Shown piece by piece: positions 17,501 to 59,354 of a DNA stretch of 64,000 bases. Each line of letters begins with the position of its first letter. The first letter of the stretch is position 1. The stretch is from Liolophura sinensis (taxonomy: Eukaryota > Mollusca > Polyplacophora > Chitonida > Chitonidae). The position numbers were made by a program, and so were the translations under genes. The notes beneath the pieces were generated by a model, which had not been told where the DNA came from, made no database searches, and saw nothing but the letters and a program-made list of their open reading frames with translations. The DNA is taken from assembly GCF_032854445.1 (NCBI RefSeq), contig NC_088302.1, positions 2,232,001-2,296,000 of the forward strand, in the 5' to 3' direction.

Positions 17501-20500
17501 TTTTATTATTTTTGTTTTATTTTGTTAACACACTGATTTGTTGATTATCATACTGTAGCCTGACTTTACATTTATTTTCAGAATTTTAAAGGAAGTACGA
17601 GAGGAATGTGAAGTGGAAGACACATCCTCTGAGGAAGATTTGCCCCCAGAGAAAGGTACATGAAGCAATTGTTGCACCAGATCTATCTAATCTAGAGCCC
17701 TTAGACAAAACAGGAGACTACAGTTATACAGTGCACACATGTCCTTGAGAACTCAGTCGTTTACTGATTATCTGCAAACTTGTACACAACAGTAATTTGC
17801 TCTAGGGACCATTGTCTACTCGGAAGTCATCTTGGATTTTGCACCCATTTAGCTGCTTTGGTAATGCCATGTTTTTTTAGGCATCTGGAAGCGAAGCGGA
17901 CAGGGTCCTAGGAGGACATTTCTGTGATGGTGAAAATTGCCACTGATTTACCAAAGTAGCTGGACTTTAAGAGTTTACTGCTGTGATGTGTTTTAGCATC
18001 TAAGGTTTTCTTCTATTTGGATATGTAAACCTGCCTAGAGCATCGTTACTGTGGAACACAATAGTATTACTTAGTTCATGCAATACCTGTAAAATTAGGC
18101 TTTATCACATAAAATTCAGTGATTTCTGTTCGCGCTCTTTAGGTGCCTGATACAAAATGGTCGCATTTCTGGTGATTTGGCCAGGCCACGATTGAAAAAA
18201 AAAATGTTTGTTGCTGGCAATATGACTGAGTCATTAAATTCAGGCCATCTCAATTTGAGGAGGGGAGCGGAAGGGTATGCAAGACCTACCGTTTAAATCC
18301 TCAAGTCAGTGTGCCTCAATACTGCTTGGTACGTCAGTGCATCGTTAGATCAGTTGACCCACAATACCTTGTTGTCTTGCAAGTGCACTGCACGAGAAAA
18401 CCCATGGGTTCTAGTTTTATTTATTTTCTGGATTTGCAATGGAAAACAATGCCTCCTTTAATTTGGAACCATGGTTTGACATACATTTAACAATGCTGTG
18501 GAGATATTACATGCATCTCCATAAAAAAAGAAATTCTTTGTACACGGAATTTTTCTTAACAGGTACACACATGTACATGTTGAATGCAGTGGTTCCATAG
18601 ATCAGTTTTGCACAAAAGAGAAGGAAAGTAACTCCGAATATTGAAGTCTTATTATTAATCTATATTTCAGTCACTGTTACACTGTTCTTGAACTCACGCA
18701 AAGCGCAGAAAATGATCTGAAGTGATGACTATGTGTGGCATCTCTCGCCATGTATTTGTTCATGTAATTGAATCCATACCACTGGATGTCTTTTTTTGTT
18801 TTGTGTCATTTGTGCCTTTTGCAAGCTCTGTGCATGTATTTGCACACAAGTACACTCAGTCTCTTGAAAATATATTAATACTTTACAATGGCTGATTGTG
18901 GTGTGGCTGGAGGGGGGGATGTACAGTACAGCCCAGAAATAACCTTACAAAAAACACAAGTAAAATGTTGTGTGGTGTTTTCATGTGCCTGGACATCATT
19001 TTATTGAGCATGAATGCGACGTGATAAAGAAAAGTATGAAGCATATTTGAGTTGTACTAGAAACATTGTTGAGCTCTTTAATCGCTTTTCAACATGTGTA
19101 GATGGCAGAGCAGTCAGAAAAATTGCCATGACTGTTTGGTTTTCTGCGGGCTGGGTGTCATGTTATCTCTGGACTGTACTGTACATCTTTGCAATCAGAT
19201 TGCTTTCTTGATAGGCTTGATCGTGCTTTTTGTTATGACTGAAAAAAATTACTTCTCAGCCATTTCATATGTCCAATAGTGTACTTCTCAGCCATTTCAA
19301 ATGTTTAATGGTTTACTTCTCAGCCATTTCATATGTCTGACAGTTTACTTCTTAGCCATTTCATATGTCTAACGGTAACAGTTGATTGATACTTGTATGT
19401 TCACAATGTTCACAAATTTTGTTCGGACTACTTTCTAATGAACTGTGTCGAAATGTAACATTCTTACTGCAAAGAGGATAGTTATAAAAAATTCATCAAG
19501 TTACATATTTCTCAACATTTAATGGATCCTTGAAAGTCATGGGGAACAAGTTTTTTCTTGTATTACTCTTAAAAAGTGCTTAACGGCAAAGAAAACACTA
19601 ATGTGGAGCATATGTGAGATGAAAGATCATGAAACACTGTCCACAAAAAAGAGTTTGATTGATTTTTTTATAGATTTTTTGGAACCTGCACAGTAACATG
19701 CCTTTGAAACTTTGGATGGTATGATGGCCTTTTCTGACCATATTGGGATCAGTGATGTCACGTCAGGTTTTTGCCTTGTAACACACATAGGCTGATAGAT
19801 TTCATTATGCTAATCTATACACGTCATGTACATAAAAATCTATGAATGCATTTGACGAATGGAACTTGAAACATACCCCCAAGGCCACTACAGACCACCA
19901 GAATCTGATGTTGTAAAACCATTTTACTGGGATGCCAAAATTAAATAGAAATAGATCAAGCAATTTTGCTGGACAGTGTTTCATGATCGTTCGTCTGATA
20001 CATGTGTATAATTAATTTTATTGTTTTCTTTACCTTAATCTTTTGATGCTAAATATCACACTTGTATTGAATTATGTTCACAATAACCAATAAATACGGT
20101 ATCAAAATAGTGTCCATTCAGTTCCCCATGTAGGTTTAAACTATCTTAAACTGAATGATCCTTGATAGTGCTAGGATATGATAGGATATTAGGCTGTTGA
20201 AAGTTCTTGAAAAGCCTTTCTTTCATGAATGGGACCCCTGTTTCAGCCAAAAGGGGTTTCATACATCTTTGAAATGGTTGAAAATCGGGGTACATGTATA
20301 TTTTTGTTTCTGATCTGTATTATCAGTTTTTGTTATTCTTGTCTTGTATATAGCCCCTGCACCACGACACAAGAAGGGAGCTGTCAAGAGCCTGTACCCG
20401 CTCCCTTCCCCTGATCACCCGCCCCCAAGTGTAGTGTCCACATTCGCCTCTAAACCACTCACCAATGGAGACGTCATAACTCCAGCAACAGTTGGTATGT

Positions 20501-23500
20501 TCTTACCAGGGCAGTTGTCAGACCATTTATGGTGCTTCTTTTTCTTCTTTTTTGGTTGTCCTTCTGTAATCTTTTCTATTTTATCTTGAATCCAATTTTA
20601 GTCTTTCACCAATCATTACTGAGATCCCTATAGTCTTCTGTAAGAATTTGATGCCTGTTTTATCTTTCCTTTGGTCTTTTTTTTGACAACCCCAAAAAAG
20701 TGGAATGCTACATTTACGAATACCCCATGGGAATTTCAGATCATGTAGGGATAGTAAGAGTGTGTAGAATTCAAACAGTTGAACTGCTTGTTTCTGTGTT
20801 TCTCAAGGTAACGAAAATGCTCCTAAAGCAAAAGTGCGAGTGAGCAGTCCTGTGGATTTCACAGATGATGACTATGTCCACATGTTGAGGACCCACAAGC
20901 GGAGGAGGACCGAGGATCTGGTAAGTTAGTGTGAGGACTTTCTAAAACAGGCTTATTCTTCTGGATGACTATGTCCACATGTTGAGGACTCACAAGCGGA
21001 GGAGGACCGAGGATCTGGTGAGTTAGTGTGAGGACTTTCTAAAACAGGCTTATTCTTCTGGATGACTATGTCCACATGTTGAGGACCCACAAGCGGAGGA
21101 GGACCGAGGATCTGGTAAGTTAGTGTGAGGACTTTCTAAAACAGGCTTATTCTTCTGGATGACTATGTCCACATGTTGAGGACCCACAAGCGGAGGAGGA
21201 CCGAGGATCTGGTAAGTTAGTGTGAGGACTTTCTAAAACAGGCTTATTCTTCTGGATGACTATGTCCACATGTTGGGGACTCACAAGCGGAGGAGGACCG
21301 AGGATCTGGTAAGTTAGTGTGAGGACTTTCTAAAACAGGCTTATTCTTCTGGATGACTATGTCCATATGTTGAGGACCCACAAGCAGAGGAGGACCGAGG
21401 ATCTGGTAAGTTAGTGTGAGGACTTTCTAAAACAGGCTTATTCTTCTGGATGACTATGTCCACATGTTGGGGACCCACAAGCGGAGGAGGACCGAGGATC
21501 TGGTAAGTTAGTGTGAGGACTTTCTAAAACAGGCTTATTCTTCTGGATGACTATGTCAACATGTTGAGGACCCACAAGCGGAGGAGGACCGAGGATCTGG
21601 TAAGTTAGTGTGAGGACTTTCTAAAACAGGCTTATTCTTCTGGATGACTATGTCCACATGTTGGGGACTCACAAGCGGAGGAGGACCGAGGATCTGGTAA
21701 GTTAGTGTGAGGACTTTCTAAAACAGGCTTATTCTTCTGGATGACTATGTCCATATGTTGAGGACCCACAAGCAGAGGAGGACCGAGGATCTGGTAAGTT
21801 AGTGTGAGGACTTTCTAAAACAGGCTTATTCTTCTGGATGACTATGTCCACATGTTGGGGACCCACAAGCGGAGGAGGACCGAGGATCTGGTAAGTTAGT
21901 GTGAGGACTTTCTAAAACAGGCTTATTCTTCTGGATGACTATGTCAACATGTTGAGGACCCACAAGCGGAGGAGGACCGAGGATCTGGTAAGTTAGTGTG
22001 AGGACTTTCTAAAACAGGCTTATTCTTCTGGATGACTATGTCAACATGTTGAGGACCCACAAGCAGAGGAGGACCGAGGATCTGGTAAGTTAGTGTGAGG
22101 ACTTTCTAAAACAGGCTTATTCTTCTGGATGACTATGTCCACATGTTGGGGACCCACAAGCAGAGGAGGACTGAGGATCTGGTAAGTTAGTGTGAGGACT
22201 TTCTAAAACAGGCTTATTCTTCTGGATGACTATGTCAACATGTTGAGGACCCACAACCGGAGGAGGACCGAGGATCTGGTAAGTTAGTGTGAGGACTTTC
22301 TAAAACAGGCTTATTCTTCTAGATGACTATGTCCACATGTTGGGGACCCACAAGCGGAGAAGGACCGAGGATCTGGTAAGTTAGTGTGAGGACTTTCTAA
22401 AACAGGCTTATTCTTCTGGATAACTATGTCCACATGTTGGGGACCCACAAGCAGAGGAGGGCCGAGGATCTGGTAAGTTAGTGTGAGGACTTTCTAAAAC
22501 AGGCTTATTCTTCTGTTTATGGTGGCTTAGAATATATGCTTAGAGACCAGTTCCTCTCACCAGACCTAAAAATGATGCCTCCATGTACAGAGAACTGCGG
22601 TTATGAGAACTGTGGGATTATGAGGCCTAAAGCGATACAATACATGATTTCTAAAATGTGGTGATTCTGTTCCGGTTTTTCAGTGAAAGTGAACACAGAG
22701 GGCAAAATAAATGTGTTGCGGTGTAAAGTATACACACAACATCAAATTCAGATTCCATGAGGCCAGAAGGCATTTCTTGATTTCTTGAAATTTCTCAGCT
22801 AAGCTGTACAGAATTTCTTACTGTCATTCAGCTTGCTGGCTCATGGTCCATTAGCATGCATGTAGATTGTAAAACCAATACACTTCTATTTATCTGTTTT
22901 ATATGCTGTTGAAAAAATATGCAATCAATTTCAATATGCAAGCACAGATCTGCATCATTCTGCAAGCACAAATCTGCATTATTATTTCTCTGGTGATTTA
23001 GATGGGGTACTCTTTTCAGGTGGCTTGCATTACCCCTTTTGCCTAGCCTGTTAACTTGATCTTTTTGGAGTAAACATGTTTGTGTGCTCTTCAGAGTAAC
23101 CTATTGGTGAAGCAAATAATTAGTATTAAACAAACTGTGGGCTGATACTCAGCCATTTTTAGGAAACCTTTTTCAGGTTAAGTTAACATTTTAAATTCTG
23201 AGGCCTGCATGAAGCAATGGACAGGGTCCCTCAGGGGTTTGTGTACACATGTATGTGCCCACATCTACATCTAACTACAATGTACAGATGATACTGTAAA
23301 CAGTGGACAGGTTCCCTCAGCTGTTTGTGTACACATGTATATGCCCACATCTACATGTAACTACAATGTACAGATGATACTGTAAACAGTGGACAGGTTC
23401 CCTCAGCTGTTTGTGTACACATGTATATGCCCACATTTACATGTAACTACAATGTACAGATGATACTGTAAACAGTGGACAGGTTCTCTCAGCTGTATGT

Positions 23501-26500
23501 GTACACATGTACAGTGTATGTGCCCACATCTACATGTAACTACAATGTACAGACGATACTGTAAACAGTGGACAGGTTCCCTCAGCTGTTTGTGTACACA
23601 TGTATATGCCCACATCTACATGTAACTACAATGCACAGATGATACTGTAAACAGTGGACAGGTTCTCTCAGCTGTTTGTGTACACATGTACAGTGTATGT
23701 GCCCACATCTACATGTAACTACAATGTACAGATGATACTGTAAATAGAGGACAGGTTTTTAGCTGTACACAACCCCTCTCTACTTGTGTACATACGTATG
23801 TGCATACATCTACATGTAACTACAATGTACAGATGATACTGTAAACAGTGGACAGGTTCTCTCAGCTGTTTGTGTACACATGTACAGTGTATGTACCCAC
23901 ATTTACATGTAACTACAATGTACAGATGATACTGTAAATAGTGGACAGGTTCTCTCAGCTGTTTGTGTACACATGTATGTACCCACATTTACATGTAACT
24001 ACAATGTGCAGATGATACTGTAAACAGTGGACAGGTTCTCTCAGCTGTTTGTGTACACATGTATGTGCCCACATCTACATGTAACTACAATGTGCAGATG
24101 ATACTGTAAACAGTGGACACATAATACTGTAAACAGTGGACGCACAATACTGTGAACAGTGGACACATAATACTGATGTCACTTTTGAAGCTGCATGTTA
24201 GAAGCAAGTGAAACAAGCATGATAAGCAGGAGAGTGTACAGTACAGTGTAATGTGTGGATGTCTGGTGCTGTATGAGTGTGATATTGAACTGTAATGTGA
24301 ACGCGTCTCTGTCATGTTGAACAGGACTGCCCAGACATGGACACCCAGAATATAATGTTACAGGATATCATGTTCAGGTGCCAAGCCATCAGAAAAGCTC
24401 CGGCCAAGTCACCCATCTGTGAGTAATCCATCCCATATGTGCTTGTATGTGTTATCATTGTGGAAGTTAATGCATCCATCTGACTTCCAGGAACTAGCAA
24501 CGCTCAGAAATTGTCTGATATGTATGACACATATTACTTGACAAAGCTTACTTCCCTTTATACTCATGATATTTTTGTAATGAGCCACAAGGAAGGTAGT
24601 CTTGGCTAATAATACCCTTGCGATTTTAAAATTGAGCAATTTGGGAAGAGCATTATTCCTATTCTGTATATAGTGTGCCTTTCAGGTAATGTGTATAATT
24701 TAGAAATCCTCGAATGTGTCCGTGTTGTAGCCCCGTCCCTTACTGTCGGCGTAAAGAAGAGAGTGAAAGCACGAGAGAGGCCTGAGAGGAAGCTGAAGAG
24801 AGAGCGCCCTCTGAAGGAGGTGGTTAAGACTGAGGAGGATAGTATGGGGAGTAAACCCTCCCTGAGGACAGAGGAGGACAGTCAGCTGACAGAACGGGAC
24901 AAGCTGCTTAGTGTCTCACGAGACGAAGAAGAGGATAGTGTGTCAGATTTCCCTCTGCAAGAGTGAGGCTCTTTGTAGTTTTAATGTATTTCAACCATAA
25001 TTTTTGATGAAATTGGATAAATTTAATGTGAATCAGAAGCACCAGTGGCTGTTACACTTTGTAACGTTAATTTCCTACATTTCTGCAGGACAGCTTGTGT
25101 ATTGTATGTTGACAATGCTATTCAATCAAAATCTGATTAAGACATGAATTCCAAACAGGGAAGGAAGGGTAACATGTACAACAGCGACTGACTTTACAGG
25201 ACATTTACAACAGCGACTGACTTTACAGGACATTTACAACAGCGACTGACTTTACAGGACATTTACAACAGCGACTGACTTTACAGGACTTCTTGTCCTA
25301 AGACATGTCATTCACAGCAGAATGATCATGAGAGGCCATGTTAGTAAACGTTTCGCTCAAAATAACAGGTAAACATGATATGCTGGCAGTGTCTGGTTAC
25401 ACTTCCTTACCCATACACTGCTAGGGCCTCTCAAGTTTGTACGCGTTGAATTTGCAAAATTAGATTTTTTTCTGTCAAAAGGATAAAAAATTTTGAAGTA
25501 TACAGCTGGTTTTGATGTACCATAACTTTATGTAAACATTGTAGCTAAAGCTTTTAGTTCATTTGAACTAAAACAGCCTCTTCAACACATAAATCTTTTG
25601 TTGAACACAGGATTAATTCTGTATCAGATAAATAGATAAGAAAAACCTATAAAAGCACATCCACAGCTTTCAAGCGGAAATGATTTTTGTGTCAAAGTTT
25701 AGCATTTTGTAATCGTTATGACTGTTGGGTTCATTTTGCAGATCTCAGGCTCCACATTTGTTGTTTGGACAATATAGTAACTTCTTCAGCTTACTGAGGG
25801 ATCTGATCAATGAGTTTGATGATGCTAAGGTCACTACAGCCAAGGTCAGTGTACATAGGATTTACCAGGTGTAGGACACACACAGTTAATGTGAAACATT
25901 ATTGTACACACTTTCAGAAATGACATTATGCACACTTTAAGAAATAACATTATACACACTTTCCGAAATGACATTATGCACACTTTCAGAAATGACATTG
26001 TGCATACTTTAAGAAATAGCCTTATGCACACTTTCAGAAACTTGGTAGTTGTGGCGTTCAAATTTAGCTGACTTGTGCTATCATCAGTCAGCATTTGTGT
26101 ATCACATATATAGTGAGTATATGTCTATATGTCAGCCTTTGTGTATGGGTTAGTATTTACATGTGTATACATGTGTATATCAGCCAGCATTTGTTTATTA
26201 CTCATTCTTTATTGTTAATCGGCATGTATTTTAGAATCAGTATATATGTTTTCACAGTGGCTTCATTGTTTGTCATTCATCCTACATACCCACCGAAAAA
26301 CAGGTGTTTAGGTGATGCATACTGGGTGTTCAATTGACGCTTACTGGATTTTCAAGTGACACATACCAGGTGTTCAAGTCTCGCATACCGGGTGTTCAAG
26401 TCACGCATACCGGGTGTTCAAGTGACATGTACTGGGTGTTCAAGTGACATACTAATTTCACAGATTCCAATTAAAAACTGGATGCTTCACTCATTGAGAT

Positions 26501-29500
26501 TTGAAATCGGATCTCAATGTCTGTAGCCCTTCTGAGCTATTGGGTAGTTCTCGCTTGCTACTGCTAGCATATGCACAAGAAAGCTGGTCTGGTTACACCT
26601 TACCATGGAAGTCGGATAAGGCCATCATCATAGCATCATACTATCTTTCCGGTACTGACACTTGTCAACGACAACAATGCGTCTAGCACAGCGGCTTTTG
26701 TCCCAACTATTTAAAAGAACGAAAGATTAACATGTTAACATTTTCAGTTTAGCAAATTCAGTTTTAGCAGCTGCTGGATTTATTATTTCAAGCAAATTTG
26801 TTATTTGCAATAATCAGAAAATACTTGGTAAAGCTTCTAAATGAATTATTTGATGTAGCTGCTTTACATTATTTACTTAACACGGTACACAGAATGTTGA
26901 TGGGTATTTTTTTGTCTGTGATATTTGTTTAGAGAAATTACCTTGGTGAGAAATATCATTTCTCTGATATGAGCCTTTCAGTTTATGAAGCTCTGCTGGG
27001 AAAGTATGTTTGAGGGCTATTATAAATTTGCAGCACTCTTCTAGGCTAATGTAGGTTAATTTATTGGGTACATTTAAACTTTAAACTCACTAATTTGGTT
27101 TAAGCAAACAAAAACCATAATACGGTCGTAAACCTGTGTAGTGTGTTAGGGCACCATGGATAACATCGTAACAGCTTTATGTAAGACCACATCAATGTAG
27201 GTAATATATTAGTGAAATATATAGTTTTACAAGCATATGTAAGGGAGAATTTTAATATATAGAAATTTTAATATATAGAAAAAATCGTCAAGTTTTAGTT
27301 GCTAAAACCGCGATTTCATGAAATGAGCGATTCTTGCCAAACAATGAAACCACTGTGTAAGTCAGTTACCGCTCTTGGGTTCATTGTCAGCTTGAACACA
27401 AAAATCAAAGGCGCTAACTGTAGCAAATCTGTCAGTGTTGGTGTACTAGTGAGTGTTGGTGTAACAGTCTTTGTTGGTGTACCAGTCAGTTTTTGTGTAC
27501 CATTCAGTGCTGGTGTACAAGTGAGCGTTGGTGTACCAGTTAGTGTATGTGTACCATTCAGTGCTGGTGTACAAGTGAGTGTAGATGTTACAGTCAGTGT
27601 ATGTGTACCATTCAGTGGTGTTTTACAAGTGAGTGTTGGTGTACCAGTCAGTATTTGTGTACCACTCAATGTTGGTGTACCAGTCAGTGTTGGTGTAACA
27701 GTCAGTGTTTGTGTACCAGCAAGTGTATGTGTACCATTCAGTGTTGTGTATCAGTCAGTGTTGGTGTGTCAGTTATTGCTGGTGTGTCAGTCAGTACTGG
27801 TGTGTCAGTCAGTGTTGGTGTGTCAGTCAGTTCTAGTGTGTCAATCAGTGTTGGTGTATCAGTAAGTGCTTGTGTATCCGTCAGTTTTGGTGTGTCAGTC
27901 AGTGTTGGTGTGTCAGTCAGTGCTGGTGTGTCAGTCAGTGTTGGTGTGTCAGTCAGTGTTGGATGTGACAATCAGTGTTAGATGTGTCAGTTAGTGTTTG
28001 TGTCTCAGTCTGTGTTGGATGTGTCAGTCAGTGCTAGTGTACCACTCAGTGTTGGGGTACCAGTCAGGGTTGGTGTGTCAGTCAGTGTATGTGTACCAGT
28101 CAATGTATGTGTACCAGGCAGTGTATGTGTACCAGCCAGTGTTTGCATACTTGCAGATGGAGGAGAAGGTGAGAGAATGGCAGGAGTCCTCAACCTGCAG
28201 CCTTAACCCCTGGTTCTCACAGCAGCCTAACTGGGTTGATGCTGTTGTCTCCGCTCTCAAGTTTTTATCAGGCGATGCTCTCGGTAAATTGTTGTCCTAT
28301 TCTTTATATGCATGCTTCTTCTTGCTAGAAACATCTTTGCTCATGTAATTACAAACTTCCATTGTTCTAGCCAAAGATCTGCTTGCCTCGTGATTTGGTG
28401 TTTATAGTTTAGGGTATGTTTGTAAGACTACACATAGTTAACCAAGGCAAACTGCTCAGTTATCAGACGGGTCTTTATTTTTCCACTTTATAATATCCAG
28501 TCATCTGAACAAACCATTTAGAAAATGATGGCCCAGTTCTTCTTCATAAATCAGATGAAATATGTGTACAGGTAGGCTGATATTGAAGATGACAGCTTAT
28601 CTCAATTTCCATCTCAGGTAATTTAAAGCTGTCATATATGTTCCAGGTTTAGATCTAGAAAACTTCATCCCTTTCTTGGACTACAAGGAGCGTGCGCAGC
28701 AGTGGAAATGGATAGGTGCTAGTCGGGACACTGACGCTCAGTTACTTCCCTTGTTCAAACACTGGCTGGAAAACAAGGACGACAATCCTTCTGACTTCTT
28801 TGATAGCAGCCAGGGATCACCACCACCCAACAGGATGTGAGCAAAACTGTTTTGTTTTAGATTGATTATGATCTCACCTGATCTTTGGCTTGTCAGACAT
28901 TTATGTTTCTTGAGAATACCATGTATACAGTATAGCTCAGGCTAAAAGTCAAAACCAGGCAGGAGGTCTTTTTGAGAGTTTATAGAGAGTTTGTATGGCG
29001 CCTGTGGAGAGCTTTGGGACAGTCACCTGCAGAGTCAGTGATGTGTCCACTGTGACTTATCACAGACACGTAGCTGAGCATTGGTAGACCTACATGCTGG
29101 CTGCGGGACGCTGACAGAGTCAGTGATCCATCCACTGTGACCGATCACACGCACACGTGGCTGAGCATTGGTAGACCTACGTGCTGGCTGCGGGATGCTG
29201 ACAGTCAGTGATCCGTCCACTGTGACCGATCACACACACGCATGTGGCTGAGCAGTGGTAGACCTACGTGCTGGCTGTGGCATGCTGACAGTCATTGATC
29301 CGTCCACTGTGACCGATCACACACACGCATGTGGCTGAGCAGTGGTAGACCTACGTGCTGGCTGTGGCATGCTGACAGTCAGTGATCCGTCCACTGTGAC
29401 CGATCACACACACGCATGTGGCTGAGCAGTGGTAGACCTACGTGCTGGCTGCGGGATGCTGACAGTCATTGATCCGTCCACTGTGACTGATCACACACAC

Positions 29501-32500: not shown

Positions 32501-35500
32501 TTTGAGTAGGGAAATTAATATTGTTCAATTTTTTTTTCTTTATATTCATCGTAGTGGAAAATGTAAAGCCTTTAAATGGCTACTTTGGGAGCTTTGCATT
32601 TTGGACACGCTCTTTGCATTTTGGACACTCCGTTTGCATAATCTAAAGCCCTTCGGTCACACCTCACTGAATATGTAGAAGAACTAAATGAAAGATTCTT
32701 GAAGGAGCAAAATGCAGAAAAATGTCAACAATGTAATGATTTTGAAATTGCTTGTCCAAGATTATCTGCTCTGTATAAAGTGTAACATATGAACCAAAAA
32801 CTAGCCTACATTTTAATGTCTGAAAGTAACTTTTTCAGGCTTGAAAATACTGTGTAATCTTTTCAGAATTAAACGGCATCGGTAAGTCTCCATATTTCAT
32901 GTGATTTTTTCCTATGTGTGATGTTTTATACATTACAGGAGAGACGTAGGTTTGAAAACCCCCACAAAGCCTTCACATATGTGTTACACGGTTATGAGTC
33001 CGTGGTGGGACCCGTTAAGGGAGTGTACAGTAAAGACAATGCTATGAATAAGGCCAGGGAGCATAACCTACTGATATCAGACCGTCCATCCTACGTCACC
33101 ATTCTTACATTAGGTAAGTGTAGCTAGTGTTGTTAGAAGTTGTATATTTCATCAGAGTTATTGTCACAATAAGCTTACGTGTAATGAAGCTAAATGAGTT
33201 TGAATTACCTAATACACCATATGTATGTCAGTTTGAATTTTCACCATACCTAATACGCCATATGTATGTCAGTTTGAATTATCACCACACCTCATACACC
33301 ATATGTATGTCAGTTTGAATTATCACCACACCTAGTAGACCATATGTATGTCAGTTTCAATTATCACCATACCTAATACACCATATGTATGTCAGTTTGA
33401 ATTATCACTGCACCTAATACACCATATGTATGTCAGTTTGAATTATCATGTCACCTAATACACCATATGTATGTCAGTTTGAATTATCCCATCAGTCTCG
33501 TTTTGGCATGTTCGGTTTTGTTGCTACAATAACTGCCCCAAGTCTTAAATAAATATTATAAGGTAAATTTTATGGGCAAGTTTACACTTTGAAACCTCAG
33601 ATCACGTTTACATATCAGCCTGGTCAATGCTTACATTGTACATATTTAATGAATTTCCTTGTTCTCAGTGGTCTTTTGGTTTTTGGTTTGTCAGGTTTTG
33701 ATAATAGATTAGGCTTATTTTGTGACCTCTCAGATTAGGTTCAAAAACCAGCTTGAACCATGCTTAACTTAGGCATATTTAGTGTGGGATTGACTTTCTT
33801 GTTCTATTTGAAATAATGTAGTTTAAATGCCAAGGTGTATTTTAAAGTCTGTAGGTGTGATGTTTTTATTGTTTCAGTACGTGATGCAGCCGCACGCCTG
33901 CCCAATGGCGAGGGGACCCGAGGGGACATCTGCGAGCTGCTCAAAGACTCTGGGTTCATTGCTCCAGGTGTTACAGATGCACAGGTAAGCTAATAATTTC
34001 TCAACCTTCATATAATCTGATATAAACTTTAGGTGATTCCTTGAACTCATGGCTTAACTGCACTGGCATGGATAGCTCAGTAGATAGAGCAGTTGGGCTA
34101 GGCACCCTAATCACAGTATATCTACCTGGTATACAGTGGGGCTAGGAACCCTAATTACAGTATATCTACCTGGTATACAGTGGGGCTAGGCACCCTAATT
34201 ACAGTATATCTACCTGATATTCTACCTGAAACACTGATTCATATCCTAGTCCATGTACATTGTACCATAAATGTTGAATGTCTTTGTGAAAAATCATTGA
34301 CTACATATAAGTATACCTAACACACAAGCCATTCCCACCTGAGCAGAAGCTCACACAGTTATTACAGCCAGAGTTTTCACTGGTGTTGACTTATCAGAGG
34401 AAACTGTGATGGGGATGACAATATAGAATATTTACCTGATGATTAGGATTAAACTATGATGAGGATGACAATATAGAATATTTACTTGATGATTAGGATT
34501 AAACTATGATGAGGATGACAATATAGAATATTTACTTGATGATTAGGATTAAACTATGATGAGAATTACAATATAGAATATTTACCTGATGATTAGGATT
34601 AAACTATGATGAGGATGACAATATAGAATATTTACCTGATGATTAGGATTAAACTATGATGAGAGTTACAATATAGAATATTTACCTGATGATTAGGATT
34701 AAACTATGATGAGGATGACAGTATAGAATATTTACCTGATGATTAGGATTAAACTATGATGAGGATGACAATATAGAATATTTACCTGATGATTAGGATT
34801 AAACTATGATGAGGATGACAATATAGAATATTTACCTGATGATTAGGATTAAACTATGATGAGGATGACAATATAGAATATTTACCTGATGATTAGGATT
34901 AAACTATGATGAGGATGACAATATAGAATATTTACCTGATGATTAGGATTAAACTATGATGAGGATTACAATATAGAATATTTACCTGATGATTAGGATT
35001 AAACTATGATGAGGATTACAATATATAATATTTACCTGATGATTATGATTAATCTATGATGAGTTTACCTGTTGATTATGTTTAAACTATGGTGAGGATT
35101 ACAGTATAGAATGTTTACCTGTTGATTATGATTAAACTGTTATGAGGATTACAGTATAGAATATTTACCTGATAATTAGGATTAAACTATGATGAGTTTA
35201 CTTGTTGATTATGATTAAAATTTTATGACGATTACAGTGTAGAATGTTTACCTGTTGATTATGATTAAACTGTTATGAGGATTACAGTATAGAATGTTTA
35301 CCTGTTGATTATGATTAAACTATGATGAGGATTACAATTTTGAATATTTACCTGATAATTATGATTAAACTATGATGTTGATTATGGTTAATCTATGATG
35401 AGTTTACCTGTTGATTATGATTAAACTATGACGCGGATTACAATTTAGAATATTTACCTGATGATAATGATTAAACTATGATGTTGATTATGGTTAATCT

Positions 35501-38500
35501 ATGGCGAGTTTACCTGATGATTATGATTAAACTATGGTGAGGATTACAAAATGTAGAATATATACCTGATGATTATGATTAAACTGTTATGAGGATTACA
35601 ATATAGAATATATACCTGTTGATTAGGATTAAACTATGATGAGGATTATAATGCAGAATGTTTACCTGTTGCTTATGCTTGAACAGTGCTATGGTTACCC
35701 TCTGCCTTTGTAGATCAACACGGTTGTGAGTGGGGCTTTAGACAGGCTCCATTACGAGAAGGACCCGTGTGTCAAGTACGAGGTTAACAGGAAGCTATGG
35801 GTGTATTTGCACAGGAACAGGACAGAGGAGGAGTTTGGTGAGAACACAGTTCTAGATCAGCCTGGTCATTTTGAAATATAGTGCCTTAGTGTCTTAATGT
35901 AATTGTGGAGAAGGCGGCCAGCATGCAAGTGCGGCGCAATGAACGAAGAGCATCTTACGAATCAGGCCAGTGTTCAAGTTGAGCTCATGCTGGCCTCCTC
36001 TCCGGCCGCACATGGGAAGGTTTGCCAGTAACCTGCGGTTGGTCATGTGTTCCCACTGGGATTGGCTCGGTTTACTCCCATCATCATGCTGGCCTCCTCT
36101 CCGGCCGCACATGGGAAGGTTTGCCAGTAACCTGCGGTTGGTCATGTGTTTCCACTGGGATTGGCTCGGTTTACTCCCATCATCATGCTGGCCTCCTCTC
36201 CGGCCGCACGTGGGAAGGTTTGCCAGTAACCTGCGGTTGGTCATGTGTTTCCACTGGGATTGGCTCGGTTTACTCCCATCATCATGCTGGCCTCCTCTCC
36301 GGCCGCACATGGGAAGGTTTGCCAGTAACCTGCGGTTGGTCATGTGTTCCCACTGGGTTTACTCCCATCATTACGCTGACCGCCGTTAAAAAACAAAATA
36401 TTCTTGAGTATGGTGTAAAACACCAACCAAATAAAAAAGTTAATAAATACACACTGGTAATTAATTGTGTAGAACACTGAGTCATAGTGAAGAGGAGTTT
36501 TTGCATGTTATTGTCTGTTTTGTCTTTTTTTTTGCAGTTCATATTGACTTGTCAGTACAGTTAAACCTTCATACAAGATGTTAGTAGTGTGGTGACACAT
36601 TACTGTGTAATAAGTATGAACTGTTGTGTGTTTTGCAGAGAAAATCCATCAGGCCCAAGGTGCTGCGGTAAAAGCCAAGAAATCACTTCAGAAACCAAAA
36701 GCCTCCAGATCGGTGAGGTTCACTGCCATGAGTTTCTGTTTGCTTTGTTTTATTAATTATACTACAGGATCAAGATGATAAAGTTAACCTTGTTCAGAAA
36801 TTTCAACAAAAACGTTCATATTTTAATTTCCCAAATTTGTGTTAACTTATTCATTGGGCTGACAGAGCAAATTTTGAGATAAAATGTCAAGATGTTTGGA
36901 AAAATGGGTTGTGCTTCCCTATAACCTTGTGCGGTAATCATTGGAAAAAAAGGCAGTGTTTCCTGTAACTGGGTTTGTTAACGACTGAAATAACACATGT
37001 AAGAAGTGGTTACCTATAATCTGGCAAATTAGTGATTGTTCCTTCGAAAGTTCATCAAAACCCATGTAAAATAAAATAAAAAATTCATTTTGAAATATTG
37101 ATTCTGACTCATACTAGTGATATGATAATCCTGTTTATTATTTATGTTTTGCTGGATGTCAGCTAAATTTGTTTTCATATCGCTAAATATGTTAAGGTTT
37201 TGTGTTGAGGTTGGCAGGATGACATTCATGTAATTATTGACAAGTAATTAATTTTTTGTCATCAGAAATCTAAAGATGGTTCTGGTGGGACAACTACCCC
37301 AGCTCCCCAGACTGCATCAGTGGGGTCTGTGTCCAAGACATCCACAGCCAATCACAGCACAGCCTCTGAGGAGAGCTCGATTGCAAGCCTCCTGACGCCC
37401 ACAACAGCCAGTACGGGAGTGTCACCAGGGCCTAATAAGACCAGTGGAAGTCCCCGTGGCCATGCTGCCAAGCAGACAACCAGTCCTAATGCCCAGAAGA
37501 CCCCTACAGCCCGCCGCGCAGTAACAGGCTCGGTCATTCCCTCAGGAACTCTCCTCCAGGCCAGTCATCAGGTGGGTGTGGTCACCTCGGCCGCAATCTC
37601 CCCACTAAGGGGCAGCCCTCAGGTGGTCACTACACACCAGGTCACACAGGCAGGGAAGGCGGTTAGTGCCAGTGTTAAACCAGCCACTCCTGGCAGCAAG
37701 CCTGTCACCATCTCCTTCATGCAGCCTCAAAGTGGTAGCACAACAGTACCAGTGATGACTCAGGTGAAAAGCGGTAAAACAAGCCACGGTCAGCTATCCT
37801 TCAATCTCCTGCAGACTCAGGACATCTCCGGTAAGCTGACCGCCACACCTTCACTCACCCAGGTCCCCTCCCCTGGTTCACTGGTCCTCACCAAGTCAGC
37901 AGAGACAGGCACACCCCGTGCCCAAAAGTTGCCAACCTCTTCAGCTAGTTCATTGACTGTAACAAAGTCTGCCTCCCCTCTGGCAGGCACCCCAGCAGCC
38001 AGCAGCAGCGTCTCAGGGACACCCCCGGCCTCCAGCAGTTCTCCCGTGGTGGCGCGTTTGGTCCAACAGGTGCCCCACCCACAAATGATGTCTGTAGGGA
38101 ATCTGCTTCAGGGGACTGTGCAGAAAATGGCAGGCAGAGGATCAGGCCCAACTACCATCAAGATTCAGGGTGAGTTATCCACATACCAACTGCTAGGGCC
38201 ATATCTTGAGCCACTTCAGCTCTTCAAAACATTTGGCCGCCCAAACTAAAACAAGCTGTATTAAAACTGATAAGTAAATTAATCCAAAATATGATGGTTT
38301 ACCAATAAAAAGTTAAGTTTTCATACAAATTTCTTTCATTCACAGACATCTCTCAGAAAGCATCATTTTGAGTTGCATTTTGAAAATTTCTTTATGCACA
38401 GTAACAGTGTCACCATTAAAGTTTGGGATTAGAACCTTGAATGTTTTTTCTAGATATGGCCCTGACTAGCCTGGTTATGTACACATGTACATGTATGTTA

Positions 38501-41500: not shown

Positions 41501-44500
41501 CCAGGCAATAAACATGTATGTATGACTATACAGTACAGCAGTTTATTGTACTGTACAAAAACTGTACTGTGTAGCAGCTTACAGTACTGTACAACAGCTG
41601 TACTTTGCTGTCCTGTACAACAGCTATAACCAAATTATGTTTGACAATTAAGAACATACTTTATCTGAATAGGTTTTGTTGTTGTTGTCATTAGGAGGAA
41701 ACATTGTTCCAGGAGGAAAACCCATCCACCTGTCTGGAAAACCCCTGACCACACACAAGGGCCTTGTTCAGATCACAGGGAAACCTGGTCAGCAGACCCT
41801 GGGGTTAGTACAGACCCCCCAGGGTCCTCTGTCCACACTCAACATCATCTCCCCAGGGGTAGCCAAAGCCACACCCACAGCTACCCTCCTTACCAGTGCG
41901 GATACTAAAGGTAAGGAGGGCAATTTTTGGTTTTACTTGCCTTAGGTTTCATTTTTCTATAAAAATGATGCATAAGTAATTGCATTGATCAGGTAGTGTG
42001 TTAAGTGTACTTTCCAATACCATCTACAATACAACTCAGAAATAATCTTACAAAAAACTTTTATAAAGCACAGTTAAGTTGCATTGAACACATTGTTATG
42101 TTCTTTGATGCAAAGCAATAAAAGGCATTAATTGTCAAATGGTAGATATACATACAAGAAGTTCCTTGATCCACCCAGTCCGGCCACAAAGTTTACAACA
42201 ACAACCTGACATATTTCTTATGAGCAGTTTCATTGGTTACAATTGTTTGTATTTATGGTCCATTTTTATTTATTTTATTGTCCAGTTACAACAACATACA
42301 TAACTGTTGGCAGAATACATGTATACATGAGAATGGCTTAAACTTTCACAGTGGCCTTCCAATTCAGCATATGTGCTACAAGTTAATTGTTCTTTGACAA
42401 AAGAAGTTGAATAAAACTCAAGCTGTTTTCTGCAGCTTGAATTTATAGGCCCCTAGCCTGGCTTACATGGATTTGCTAACAACTTACAAACATCCAGCAA
42501 CCACCCATTCATGTATATGTAGGTACTGCAGAGATATGTTAGTGAGCCTTGTCAGCAACTTTTACGCTACTTTGAGTGCTGGTTTCTATCATCCTTGTCA
42601 AAGCGACAGTACTTGTACAAGAAAAAGACCCTCGTTGTATATTATACAATCTTTGATGAACACTTTTTTTTGCTGGTGAATCTCACATTGCAAGGTGAAA
42701 TATTCACACAACAAGGCACCAAGAAATAAACGCAGTTTAATGAACATGATTGCAATAAAAGCATTGTGCAATCACTCAGTAATCGCTGTACGGTGCATGA
42801 ACACGACAGAATAATCTGGAAAACGACCACGACTTTGTTGGGTTTTATGCCCACTGGATATCTGGTTATTTCTGGGCTGTACTGTATGCTAGGCTGTCAA
42901 CCCATTAAAACAATTAATTGAAACTCGATAATGTGTAGGTACATACATGCATTTTCCATGGATATAAAAAAAAAATCAATGACTTTACTGTACTCTTCAC
43001 TTTAGGTATTTATTTGTTGATACACTGTCATGATTGTGTATCTACATGTATTTTGAGGAGCTCATTTAATGTTTTCCTGAAGTTATAAAGTCCAAAATAA
43101 TTATTACAAAGCCTTTCATATGTAGGTATCAGGTGTCCCTTTGTATATTGAAATGTTAATAGCGTATAGCCTGCTTTATGCTGATAGGTTGAAATTTAAC
43201 AATGATTAAGATTTAACTATTTGCTGATCCTCAGCAGTTGGTGTTAGGCCGAGGTAAAGAAGGAAACATTTAAATTTGCAATCTGTGGTTGTTCAGGTTG
43301 TTCAGCTTTTTTTGTTGTCCCTGGTGGTCAAATATAGGTTTAAGCTAAACCATGAGCACAAATCCACAATGATGACATGAATGTAATATGTGTGAATGTG
43401 TTTCATGAATACATTGTGTACTTGTTACAGTAACAAACTCTGACAGTACGTCGGGTACCATCCTGAGCTCTGCCTTACAAGGTGGCAGCGTTGTCTCCCA
43501 CACCAAAGCTGGTGCCACAGTTTTACAGTCTCAGAATCTGCAGGTCGTCTCCCAACCAAGGGTTGTCTCCCCTTCTCAGGCGGGTATTGTCGTCACACAG
43601 CTGGCTCCAGGCAGCCTCTCTCTCAGACCAGGTAACTGTCAAAGTGTAGGTAAGACTGCCAGTCAAGCCAGATACTTTAATACGTGAAGGTGTTGGCTAA
43701 TTTGCCAGCCATCCAGGCTCCAAGACAGAGCAGGTAACTGCAGAAAGATGTTGGTTGGATTGTCAGCCATCCAAGCTCCTAGACAGAGCAGGTAACTGTA
43801 TGAAGGTGTTAGCTAGATTGTCAGCTACCCAGGCTCCTAGACAGAGCAGGTAACTGTATGGAGGTGTTAGCTAGATTGTCAGCCACCCAGGCACTCAGAC
43901 AGAGCAGGTAACTGTATGGAGGTGTTAGCTAGATTGTCAGCCACCCAGGCACTCAGACAGAGCAGGTAACTGTATGAAGGTGTTGGCTAGATTTACAGTC
44001 ATCCAGGCCTCCAGACAGACCAGGCAACTGTATGAGGTGTTGGTTAGATTGTTAACTGTCCAGACTTCTAGACAGAGTAGGTAACTGTATGCGTTAAAGG
44101 TTTTGGTTGGATTGTCAGCCCTCCAGACAGAGCAGGTAACTGTATGAAGATGTTGGTTATTTTGTCAGCCATCCAGGCTCTCAGACAGACCAGGTAACTG
44201 TATGAAGGTGTTGGTTATATTTTATCAGTCATCCAGGCTCACAGACAGACCAGGTAACTGTATGAAGGTGTTGGTTAGATTGTTAACTGTCCAGACTCCT
44301 GGACAGACCAGGTAACTGTATGAAGGTGTTGGTTATATTTTATCAGTCATCCAGGCTCACTGACAGACCAGGTAACTGTATGAAGGTGTTGGCTAGATTG
44401 TCAGTCATCCAGGCTCACAGACAGACCAGGTAACTGTATGAAGGTGTTGGCTAGATTTTCAGTCATCCAGGCTCACTGACAGACCAGGTAACTGTATGAA

Positions 44501-47500
44501 GGTGTTGGCTAGATTTTCAGTCATCCAGGCTCACAGACAGACCAGGTAACTGTATGAACTGTTAGATTGTTAACTGTCCAGACTCCTAGACAGACCAGGT
44601 AACTGTAGGAAGGTGTAGGCTAGATTGTCAGCCATCCAAGCTCCTAGACAGAGCAGGTAACTGTGTGAAGGTGTGGGCTAGATTGTCAGTCATCCAGGCC
44701 TCCAGACAGACCAGGCAACTGTATGAGGTGTTGGTTAGATTGTTAACTGTCCAGACTTCTAGACAGAGTAGGTAACTGTATGCGTTAAAGGTTTTGGTTG
44801 GATTGTCAGCCCTCCAGACAGAGCAGGTAACTGTATGAAGATGTTGGTTATTTTGTCAGCCATCCAGGCTCTCAGACAGACCAGGTAACTGTATGAAGGT
44901 GTTGGTTATATTTTATCAGTCATCCAGGCTCACAGACAGACCAGGTAACTGTATGAAGGTGTTGGTTAGATTGTTAACTGTCCAGACTCCTGGACAGACC
45001 AGGTAACTGTATGAAGGTGTTGGTTATATTTTATCAGTCATCCAGGCTCACTGACAGACCAGGTAACTGTATGAAGGTGTTGGCTAGATTGTCAGTCATC
45101 CAGGCTCACAGACAGACCAGGTAACTGTATGAAGGTGTTGGCTAGATTTTCAGTCATCCAGGCTCACAGACAGACCAGGTAACTGTATGAACTGTTAGAT
45201 TGTTAACTGTCCAGACTCCTAGACAGACCAGGTAACTGTAGGAAGGTGTAGGCTAGATTGTCAGCCATCCAAGCTCCTAGACAGAGCAGGCAACTGTATG
45301 AAGGTGTTGGTTAGATTGTCAGCCCTCCAGGCTCTCAGACAGACCAGGTAACTGTATGAAGGTGTTGGTTAAATTGTCAGCCCTCCAGGCTCTCAGACAG
45401 AGCAGGTAACTGTGTGAAGGTGTGGGCTAGATTGTCAGTCATCCAGGCTCACAGACAGAGCAAGCAACTGTAGAAAGGTGTTATGTTGTCAGCTATCCAG
45501 GCTCTCAGACAGAGCAGGTAACTGTAGAAAGGTGTTGGTTATATTGTCAGCCATCCAGGCTCACAGACAGACCAGGTAACTGTAGGAAGGTGTTGGCTAG
45601 ATTGTCAGCCCTCCAGGCTCTCAGACAGACCAGGTAACTGTATGGAGGTGTTGGTTAAATTGTCAGCCCTCCAGGCTCTCAGACAGAGCAGGTAACTGTA
45701 GGAAGGTGTAGGCTAGATTGTCAGTCATCCAGGCTCTCAGACAGACCAGGTAACTGTGTGAAGGTGTGGGCTAGATTGTCAGTCATCCAGGCTCACAGAC
45801 AGAGCAAGCAACTGTAGAAAGGTGTTATGTTGTCAGCTATCCAGGCTCTCAGACAGAGCAGGTAACTGTAGAAAGGTGTTGGTTATATTGTCAGCCATCC
45901 AGGCTCACAGACAGAGCAGGTAACTGTAGAAAGCTATCCAGGCTCTCAGACAAACCAGGTAACTGTAGGAAGGTGTTAGATTGTTAGATTGTCAGCTATC
46001 CAGGCACTCAGACAGACCAGGTAACTGTAGGAAGGTGTTGGCTAGATTGTCAGTCATCCAGGCTCACATACAGAGCAAGCAACTGTAGAAAGGTGTTATG
46101 TTGTCAGCTATCCAGGCTCTCAGACAGAGCAGGTAACTGTAGAAAGGTGTTGGTTATATTGTCAGCCATCCAGGCTCACAGACAGAGCAGGTAACTGTAG
46201 AAAGCTATCCAGGCTCTCAGACAAACCAGGTAACTGTAGGAAGGTGTTAGATTGTTAGATTGTCAGCTATCCAGGCACTCAGACAGACCAGGTAACTGTA
46301 GGAAGGTGTGGGCTAGATTGTCAGTCATCCAGGCTCACATACAGAGCAAGCAACTGTAGAAAGGTGTTATGTTGTCAGCTATCCAGGCTCTCAGACAGAG
46401 CAGGTAACTGTAGAAAGGTGTTGGTTATATTGTCAGCCATCCAGGCTCACAGACAGAGCAGGTAACTGTAGAAAGCTATCCAGGCTCTCAGACAAACCAG
46501 GTAACTGTAGGAAGGTGTTAGATTGTTAGATTGTCAGCTATCCAGGCACTCAGACAGAGCAGGTAACTGTATGAAGGTGTTGGCTAGATTTTCAGTCATC
46601 CAGGCTCTCAGACAGACCACTATATGAAGACGTCCGCTAAATTGTCAGCATCCCAGGCTTCCAGATAGACAGGTAGGACATCTTCAGACAGGTATGAAGA
46701 TGTTAGTCAGTTTGCTTTCTGTCAGACCTGCCCACATGATTTGTTCTGACACTCTTCCTCATATTCTGTGGATTTTTCACCTGTTCTCATTTCTCTCCTC
46801 CCCAGGCTTGCAAAATCTGTCCCAGGCTAAGCTCCTCAATCAGTCAGGAGTGTTACCCACACAGTTTATTGTACAACAGGCACCTGCAAGCTTCAAAGGG
46901 GAAGGGGTTACCACAGCTACAGTGTCTCAAGGTAAGAGATCATTATCACCAGAAGGTTTTGGGGAGTGCTCTCATTATCGCCTATCACTAGTGGATGATT
47001 ATCTATGTCTGGTCACATCATCAATATCCCAGCTGTTGTAGTGAAGGGATATTAATACCAAGAATTATATTTTATTTTATCCCTTTTGTGTTAAATGGCG
47101 ATTCTTCTTGATGGGGTAATAAATATGAAAGATATATTAGTCTACATGTACTTATTTATGTCCATGTACTTATTTATGTAGTGAGTAGTTTGTTATCACG
47201 GGGTTTATATACTGTGTTGTATGGTTTGTCACCAGGTGGAAGCCTCAGCACCCCTATCATCGTGAGTGCCCCAGGTGGGAAGCCTGGTCAAAACATACAG
47301 CTGGTAAAGACGGTGTTAAGTCAGCACGCAGGACTGAAACCTGGCCAGGCCACCATCCTCATATCACAGCCCAACATACCTCAGTCTGCGACCTCCACAG
47401 TGTCATCCAACACACACCTACTACAGGCAGCCACAAAAGTAACAAAGGCCTCACCCAAGGGCAAACCCCAGCCTGTGTACGCCAGGATTATTACTCCTCC

Positions 47501-56742: not shown

Positions 56743-59354
56743 CTATGATGCACAGAACCAACTGAGGCAGGTCAGGCAGAGTAACAGCACCATGGTGACA
56801 CTGATAGGAGCGGCTGTATTACACAAGTCTCTAGTACATGCACATGCCTCTCCGTCTATCCCATTTCTGTAGGCTGACTGACAGCCATTGGAATCATACT
56901 CCAGTGAACAGTAACGGTGCACTTCAGGACTTTTAACAACACCAGCTGTGAACATAAACAATACAAAGGTTAGCAAATCACATATTTATAAGATTTAAAA
57001 TCATCATTTACTTGTTAGTTTTAATACACCTGGAATAGTTTGGGGCTTTGAGCACCCAACAGCTTGGGAATGCAAATGTTTTCCGGAAATTTCTCAAATA
57101 TGGCCCTCAATCAATTGGAAGACAGCGCAACTTAGGAAGTGGCTGGACACCGCTAAAAATGATACTTGTGCTGGCTTATATCTGCATATATCATATATAT
57201 GTATGTGATGCAAAGTGCCAACATGAGCTTGCCAATAGCTGCATATATCATATACTTGTATGTGATGCGAAGTGCCAACATGATCTTGCCAATAGCTGCA
57301 TATATCATATACATGTATGTCATAAGTAGTGCCAATGTGAGTTTGCCTATAGCTGCATATATCATATACATGTATGTGATGGGTAGTGCCAATGTGAGCT
57401 TGTCTACAGCTGCATATATCATATACATGTATGTGATGGGTAGTGCCAAAGTGAGCTTGCCTACAGCTGCATGTATCATGCACATGTATGTGATGGGTAG
57501 TGCCAACATGAGCTTGCCTATGGCTGCATATATCATATACTTGTGTGTGATGGGTAGTGCCAATGTGAGCTTGCCTACAGCTGCATATATCATGTACATG
57601 TATGTGATGGGTAGTGCCAAAGTGAGCTTGCCTAGAGTTGCATATATCATACACATGTATGTGATGGGTAGTGCCAATGTGAGCTTGCCTACAGCTGCAT
57701 ATATAATACACATGTATGTGATGGGTGGTGCCAAAGTGAGCTTGCCCATGGCTGCATATATCAAGCACATGTATGTGATTGGTAGTGCCAAAGTGAGCTT
57801 GCCCACAGCTGCATATATCATGCACATGTATGTGATGGGTAGTGCCAACGTGAGCTTGCCTATAGCTGCATACATGTATATCATGCGCCTGTGCCACTCC
57901 CAATGATCACTTTACATCACTATCACCGCCAGCACTATTCACTGGGGTCATGGTGATGAGGCAGGAGTGATGTCAAAAAACACCCAAACTATCTCACTGT
58001 TTGTTTCTAATAATATTTTATACATATGTATTCTCTAAATGTACAGAGTGTACAACATAATTCTAACCAATGCCTGAAACGATTATCTTGAAGAATGTGG
58101 CTTAAATAGTTTCACGTGCGAACACCAGAGATTAGGTCTAAACATGTGTTTATTTATTTATTTGTTTGATTGGTGTTTACGCCGTACTCAAGAATATTTC
58201 CCCTATACGACGGAGGCCAGCATTATGGTGGGAGGAAACCGGGCAGAGCCCGGGCGAAACCCACAACCATCCGCAGGTTGCTGCCAGACCTTCCCACTTA
58301 CGACCGGAGAAGCCAGCATGAGCTGGACTTGAACTCACAGCGACCGCATTGGTGAGAGACTCCTGGGTCATTACGCTGTGCTAGCACGTTAACCAACTGA
58401 GAATAAACATGTGTACATGTAGGTGTATCAAAGACACTCCAACGGTCAAGCACGCCATGTCTAGTTTCAGGGATGTAAAGCAAGTGTAGAGAGTGGTGCA
58501 TGCACTTTGAGCAGTATATATATATATAAGCAAAGAGTGATTCTTGATATTGCTGAGGTGACATTGCTGGCTAACTCACATCCTCTAAATCCTCGGAATT
58601 TAATACAGCGTGAACCTGAAGGACAGTTAGATGCATCGGATGGCAACACGCGGAAACGGTCTCCGCAGTCTGGCGATTCCATGGAATCACATACATAGCA
58701 GCGCAATGTCAACACTAAAACAAAAAGAACATTTTGAGAAGATACAAGTAACAATTTGACAGAGTTTATCATAATACCTGTGAAAGTATTCAAGGCTTAT
58801 TAGTACAAGAATATAGCCCACGTTATCAACTGCATTAGTCTCAGACATTGGCTTAAGCCTAACTCAACAACTTTAAATGTACCATCGTTACCTCCATAAT
58901 ATATATTTCTGACATGACAGACACGGTAAATATCACAACGTTAAATTAGGGCGGAGCTCAATTATCTCGCTGAATTAGATTAGTCCACATTAATAAGTCC
59001 ATTTAGATGTACTCTTTTTTTTAATTCTGACGTTCATCGTGTTACCATGGCAGACTTTTACAATAGCACACTGAGTACATGAACATGTAGATGGGCTAAG
59101 GCCATATGAGAGGGTGTTTTTGGGAGGGCGTGGGAAGTAAGGCTAACATTAGCATCTTACTTTTTTTAGAACAGAAACAGTGTAATCTAAACAATTTAAA
59201 CATTATGAACAACAACAACACTCAATGCTAAATCGTGTATCGCTAGAACCATTACCATGACTTTGTACACACATTACTTACCAGGTGGAGCAAACAAGAT
59301 ACAAAACAAAACACCCGCCGTGCATAAAACTGTGTAACAGCCAATTTGAACCAT
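56743..59354 (-). CDS. Ly6/uPAR-domain GPI-anchored surface protein (3 exons, 136 aa)
   Basis: Exons on the minus strand: 59354-59282, 58714-58580, 56945-56743; phases 1 and 1 join correctly. Residues 1 to about 28 form a hydrophobic signal peptide. The mature domain begins CYVCDS and carries ten cysteines in the Ly6 order, including CPSGSRC, RYC, a GC in the middle loop, and the closing CACTRDLCN. The last 18 or so residues are a hydrophobic GPI-attachment signal (VTMVLLLCLTCLSWF). The exon-2 donor is GTGAGT at 58579; reading through it gives an alternative frame with no Ly6 ending, so the splice is preferred. Family knowledge: such proteins include Drosophila Quiver/Sleepless-like channel modulators and many snail and bivalve paralogues of unknown role. 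Orthology cannot be assigned. The stop codon abuts a 27-bp minisatellite that would form the 3' UTR, and intron 2 holds a SINE and a 60-bp array. Confidence 0.9.
57165..57890. repeat. 60-bp minisatellite, 12 copies, Ly6 gene intron 2
   Basis: The unit is GCCAATGTGAGCTTGCCTAC, AGCTGCATATATCATACACA and TGTATGTGATGGGTAGT. The 60-bp period gives open frames of over 240 codons on both strands that are not supported as genes. Confidence 0.95.
57900..58149. other. Ly6 gene intron 2, unique part
   Basis: No feature recognised. The last 11 bp form the left target-site duplication of the following SINE. Confidence 0.5.
58150..58403 (-). mobile_element. Full-length V-SINE-like element with target-site duplication
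   Basis: On the minus strand: CTCAGTTGGTTAACGTGCTA (A-box region), TGTGAGTTCAAGTCCAGCTC (B-box region), GGGCTCTGCCCGGTTTCCTC (V-like domain) and an A/T-rich tail. Flanked by the 11-bp direct repeat TAAACATGTGT (58139-58149 and 58404-58414). Lies in intron 2 of the Ly6 gene. Confidence 0.92.

Follow-up and report, generated by a model that had tools for sequence, protein, structure and literature searches.

The closest described system to the locus reported here is the human gene IFI6 (6-16, G1P3), which contains a minisatellite that carries several splice donors (Turri, Cuin and Porter 1995, Nucleic Acids Res 23:1854) and in which two downstream repeat units act as donors, giving rise to three mRNAs (PMC4526556). 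Intron change by tandem genomic duplication has also been described for ATP2A1, for AGGT repeats in fission yeast and for potato RdRp (PMC4974935); fission yeast provides two genes in which a 24-bp segment containing AGGT has been multiply duplicated, and an intron lies across four copies in one case and two in the other (PMC4974935). Among the titles listed by our literature searches, for which most subscription papers were outside scope, there was no comparable donor array beyond papers that cite IFI6. Duplicated-donor constructs are an existing tool for studying the choice of 5' splice site, and the accessible text of a paper on donor competition (PMC8724738) leaves unsettled which donor wins. 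The arrays that we describe in the NFRKB gene of the chiton Liolophura sinensis are like the published cases in being tandem duplications of a piece that bears a splice signal, and unlike the new-intron cases (PMC4974935) in that an existing intron appears just to have been lengthened, no new intron being seen.

The first of these arrays resembles that of IFI6, since it is a minisatellite with donor-bearing units. The IFI6 unit is 12 bp long and alternative donor use there therefore preserves the reading frame, whereas the NFRKB unit is 97 bp long and frame-breaking, carrying a 54-nt coding tail and an in-frame stop. A donor-bearing minisatellite is thus already known, and it is the frame-breaking unit and the presence of two donor arrays in the one gene that set NFRKB apart.

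Our analysis covered a single stretch of L. sinensis DNA of 64,000 nucleotides, referred to below as the window. An upstream exon matches the NFRKB chains of the solved structures 4uf5_B and 4wlp_B, and a query assembled from the window's exons had as its top match, among the best 120 of 1,139 proteins, the L. sinensis NCBI model P0121 (nuclear factor related to kappa-B-binding protein-like isoform X2), which may be a prediction made on the same assembly. Identity to the multi-exon query is listed as 84% because the query was without some of the model's exons and included one that isoform X2 skips; the best matches of single exons ranged from 82 to 100%, with mismatches at the ends, where the queries overran exon edges. 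The window accommodates all 21 junctions of P0121 with GT..AG borders, and the flanking residues tested were free of mismatches. The exon at 20808-20920 (forward strand, 113 nt) encodes residues 254-291 with a 100% match and ranks eighth among the coding exons of the NCBI model, in agreement with the gene and exon number proposed in the initial annotation. Its edges read ctcaag/GTAA at the acceptor and CTG/gtaagt at the donor, and the model joins this donor to exon 9 at 24325-24418 on the same strand. Elsewhere in the gene, an open, exon-like stretch with splice-like edges at 41695-41914 is skipped by isoform X2 and is possibly an exon of another isoform.

That exon 8 ends at 20920, as had been claimed, is supported both by the P0121 join to 24325 and by homology. 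The peptide of exons 8 and 9 was compared with 223 homologs, being the union of the best 120 of 187 and the best 120 of 1,139 proteins, at a score cut-off of 60, which was adopted because 3 of 20 shuffled queries reached 45. At least this score was obtained for 138 homologs, of which 137 span the junction and 123 of these (P0121 itself included) do so without a gap. P0121 has no inserted coding sequence between residues 291 and 292; a scallop protein, P0128, carries extra residues at the junction.

The first array occupies 20867-22515 on the forward strand and crosses the exon-intron junction, with the annotated donor lying inside its first copy and the last 54 nt of exon 8 forming the exonic part of that copy. 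It consists of 17 tandem units of exactly 97 bp, 1649 bp in total, with no indel, each made of 54 nt of exon tail, the donor and 43 nt of intron; copy number, period and unit structure are as the initial annotation had described them. Its statement that the 17 donors are near-identical consensus sites holds as it stands for the 16 copies that read CTG/GTAAGT, and needs correction for copy 2, which reads CTG/GTGAGT; the later units thus all retain a usable donor consensus. A 34-nt string around the donor, written with a single R, is present 17 times in the window; 100 shuffles yielded none. Head-to-tail variant units in the 10-100 bp range, with 97% matches, identify the array as a minisatellite, or VNTR.

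Variation among the copies is slight, with 12 of 97 columns variable (10 among the exonic 54 and 2 among the intronic 43) and no copy departing from the consensus by more than four bases; copy 1 is identical to the consensus. Copies 5-8 and 9-12 have identical variants and form a duplicated 388-bp block (21255-22030, forward strand), which is the kind of internal duplication produced by unequal exchange. The further 3' a copy lies, the more it tends to diverge from copy 1 (Spearman 0.66, p 0.004, for copies that are not independent of one another). In the exon-derived parts of the later copies, six variable columns change an amino acid and four are silent, against 129 changing and 33 silent changes that are possible, so that coding constraint on these parts is not significant (binomial p 0.13).

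Measured against the 9-base donor consensus, 16 of the array's donors match at 8/9 positions and that of copy 2 at 7/9, and all 17 have the form GTRAGT. Among the donors of the 21 P0121 junctions, one matches at 9/9 and four at 8/9, the founders of both arrays being among these, and only 6 sense sites of at least 8/9 are found in the 43,161 bases of the window outside array loci.

Read beyond 20920, the exon 8 frame continues as GTA-AGT-TAG, that is, V-S-stop (20921-20929, forward strand, from the translation and the P0121 model). Every later donor keeps this in-frame TAG, and hence the claim that only the first donor can give a normal mRNA holds at the level of the sequence. We rejected the array as a coding repeat, 97 not being a multiple of three and the exon 8 frame stopping after two codons. 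A structured RNA likewise found no support: an Rfam search of 20500-24700 returned no family at its gathering score, and the fold of 20808-21110, which covers exon 8 and the first copies of the array only, was weaker than that of every one of 100 shuffles (z +2.18). Over this stretch the folding gives no sign that later donors are concealed.

The observation made at exon 8 is therefore confirmed, but it is not limited to 20867-22515, because a second donor array is present further along the gene. A later NFRKB coding exon (43431-43631, forward strand) ends CTCTCAGACCAG/GTAACTGT and is joined by the NCBI model to the next coding exon at 46806-46931 on the same strand; 2,935 of the 3,174 nt of intron between them are occupied by an array of 58-bp units (43685-46619, forward strand) with 44 AGGTAACTG sites and 42 CAGGTAACTG sites. 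As the repeat finder delimits it, this array begins 54 bp past the donor at 43631, and its origin must accordingly be judged by similarity and not by overlap. Alignment of the unit to the exon edge at 43631 extends over 56 columns and scores 22.5. When the edge was shuffled, 0 of 2000 sequences reached this value, and when the donor 9-mer was held in place 4 of 2000 did so, the highest scoring 25.0; the likeness is well beyond chance. When all 36 array loci of the window were compared with the edges of an approximate set of 20 exons, the donors at 20920 (81, a score that sets the first array against its own copy 1) and 43631 (20.5) ranked at the top, followed by values of 16.5, 13.0 and 11.5. 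NFRKB thus seems to hold two arrays of one plan, exon tail plus donor plus a short piece of intron, of which the second would derive from the exon edge at 43631.

Minisatellites are abundant in the window. There are 36 loci with a period of at least 15, covering 20,839 of the 64,000 bases, or about a third, and 18 of them lie within the NFRKB gene span, where the exon 8 array is the one that overlaps an exon as delimited. In unit length, copy number and the presence of variants common to several copies it is like its neighbours, from which it differs in that its founding unit spans the edge of a coding exon. Together with the internal block duplication and the precedent of IFI6, this abundance leaves without support the view of the initial annotation that the array is not a usual minisatellite, and that annotation's interpretation is on the whole partly supported. 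A further locus in the same intron (23218-24175, forward strand, 86-bp unit) contains 12 sense sites at 7/9 of the donor consensus and none at 8/9. Two other, large minisatellites approach acceptors that lie outside them, the array at 27431-28143 ending 14 bp short of the acceptor of the exon at 28157 and that at 34401-35677 ending 37 bp short of the acceptor of the exon at 35714.

When 18 arrays were placed randomly in the gene span, with the 21 P0121 junctions as targets, a mean of 0.38 had donor-spanning units, and two or more did so in 5.2% of 20,000 trials (p 0.052), a test that counts the second array as donor-spanning on grounds of similarity; a rougher exon list gave a mean of 0.30 and p 0.034. 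The chance for one donor-spanning array, which is the count if only the exon 8 array is admitted as delimited, was 0.33. For acceptors the random mean was 0.39, and none of the window's arrays was seen to overlap one. Two donor arrays in one gene are thus at most a weak excess over chance, in a comparison made post hoc. The L. sinensis genome paper gives 27.89% for repeats and, in its repeat summary, 0.08% for simple repeats and the like (PMC11068029), so the density seen in the window may not extend genome-wide, or the pipeline behind that figure may miss arrays of this type. The terms 'tandem repeat' and 'minisatellite' are absent from the main text of a chiton genome paper (PMC12005716). 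Across the window CpG is strongly depleted, with an observed/expected ratio of 0.35.

We regard it as probable that neutral growth of an intronic minisatellite trapped the exon 8 donor, that the exon-proximal donor is the one used, use of the others being nonproductive, and that the same happened independently at 43631. A founding tandem duplication would have happened to straddle the exon 8 donor, and unequal exchange or slippage would then have carried the array to 17 copies. Duplication on the donor side would leave the original exon and its donor unmoved while the extra copies became intronic, for which reason it was presumably tolerated. Splicing would link the first donor at 20920 to 24325, passing over 16 others, and the spliceosome would have to pick the exon-proximal donor from 17 of equal or near-equal strength; use of donors 2-17 would add the in-frame stop and feed nonsense-mediated decay. 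An independent event of the same type would account for the array beyond the donor at 43631. While the join from 20920 to 24325 is known from the annotation, we infer the use of the first donor in the cell, the decay of transcripts from the later donors and the neutrality of both arrays.

A selected function would place the same features in another light. The initial annotation suggested that the array could act as a U1 snRNP decoy or a tuner of splicing. In a scheme of this kind the extra donors would recruit U1 snRNP in competition with the first and divert some of the transcripts to stop-containing or intron-retained forms, copy number serving as the dial of NFRKB output. Consistent with this are the 16 additional donors within 1.6 kb (15 at 8/9 and one at 7/9), the 44 AGGTAACTG sites in another intron of the same gene, the small number of strong sense sites outside array loci, the lower variability of the intron part of the exon 8 unit (2 of 43 columns against 10 of 54 exonic ones, Fisher p 0.06), and the conservation of the second array's donor 9-mer, which ranks second of 58 windows. 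Intact donors, lower intron variation, the strength of the donors amplified in both arrays and a conserved donor in the second array would also be expected under selection on the donors. The data nevertheless fall short of demonstrating such selection, given the Fisher value and the replacement of GT by GC in 7 of 51 units of the second array, and the recent block duplication by itself keeps the copies of the exon 8 array similar. As a control for chance, the minisatellite at 34401-35677 has 14 donor-like sites (8/9) on the strand opposite to NFRKB, and content of this type can therefore arise without a tuning function. What bears on a regulatory or decoy role is thus mixed; such a role appears unlikely, and a selected donor array tuning NFRKB output is in our judgement quite improbable. 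A broader proposal, in which the minisatellites of L. sinensis start preferentially at donor sites and the NFRKB donor arrays, with 17 and 44 sites, have been retained as a copy-number dial on a chromatin-remodelling gene, acting through U1 competition and stop-containing transcripts, strikes us as slightly less credible again.

Expansion of the array during assembly, with a true copy number far lower than 17, is very unlikely. Assembly errors readily arise where tandem copies are nearly identical, and one block of four copies is exactly repeated; yet the copies carry distinct substitutions, and the published genome, by inference the source assembly of the window, is described as built from HiFi reads with a mean of 8,347 bp at 14-fold depth, about five times the length of the array (PMC11068029). 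That genome was initially named L. japonica and the name was later corrected.

By the process known as telescripting, U1 sites protect introns from premature polyadenylation, and the additional donors might shield a long intron in this way. An AATAAA at 22706 and an ATTAAA at 23125 do lie 3' of the exon 8 array in the same intron, but the intron with the larger array is without either motif, and the 3,404 nt of the exon 8 intron are not extreme among the 21 model introns, the longest of which measures 5,261 nt; we give this account hardly any weight.

A G to A change at the end of copy 15 creates an acceptor-like AG at 22321-22322 (candidate cryptic exon edge, 22321-22375, forward strand), the only AG in 20921-22515 with at least nine pyrimidines among the 14 preceding bases, and with the next donor (GTAAGT) it delimits a hypothetical 53-nt exon at 22323-22375 in copy 16. 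The birth of an exon there is scarcely credible, since 53 nt would disrupt the frame and the NCBI model is without such an exon.

Under neutral growth of a minisatellite that trapped a donor, the preferred account, the arrays would reveal the extent of spurious splice sites that a gene tolerates. With its 17 strong and almost identical donors, evenly spaced ahead of a single annotated acceptor in a gene that is conserved, the exon 8 array is a natural counterpart of the duplicated-donor construct, and the second array offers a replicate with a different unit for the same question of donor choice. Elsewhere in the window, two stretches of the reverse strand, 58470-58796 and 56746-56985, have translations that by eye resemble a cysteine-rich protein of the Ly6/uPAR type.
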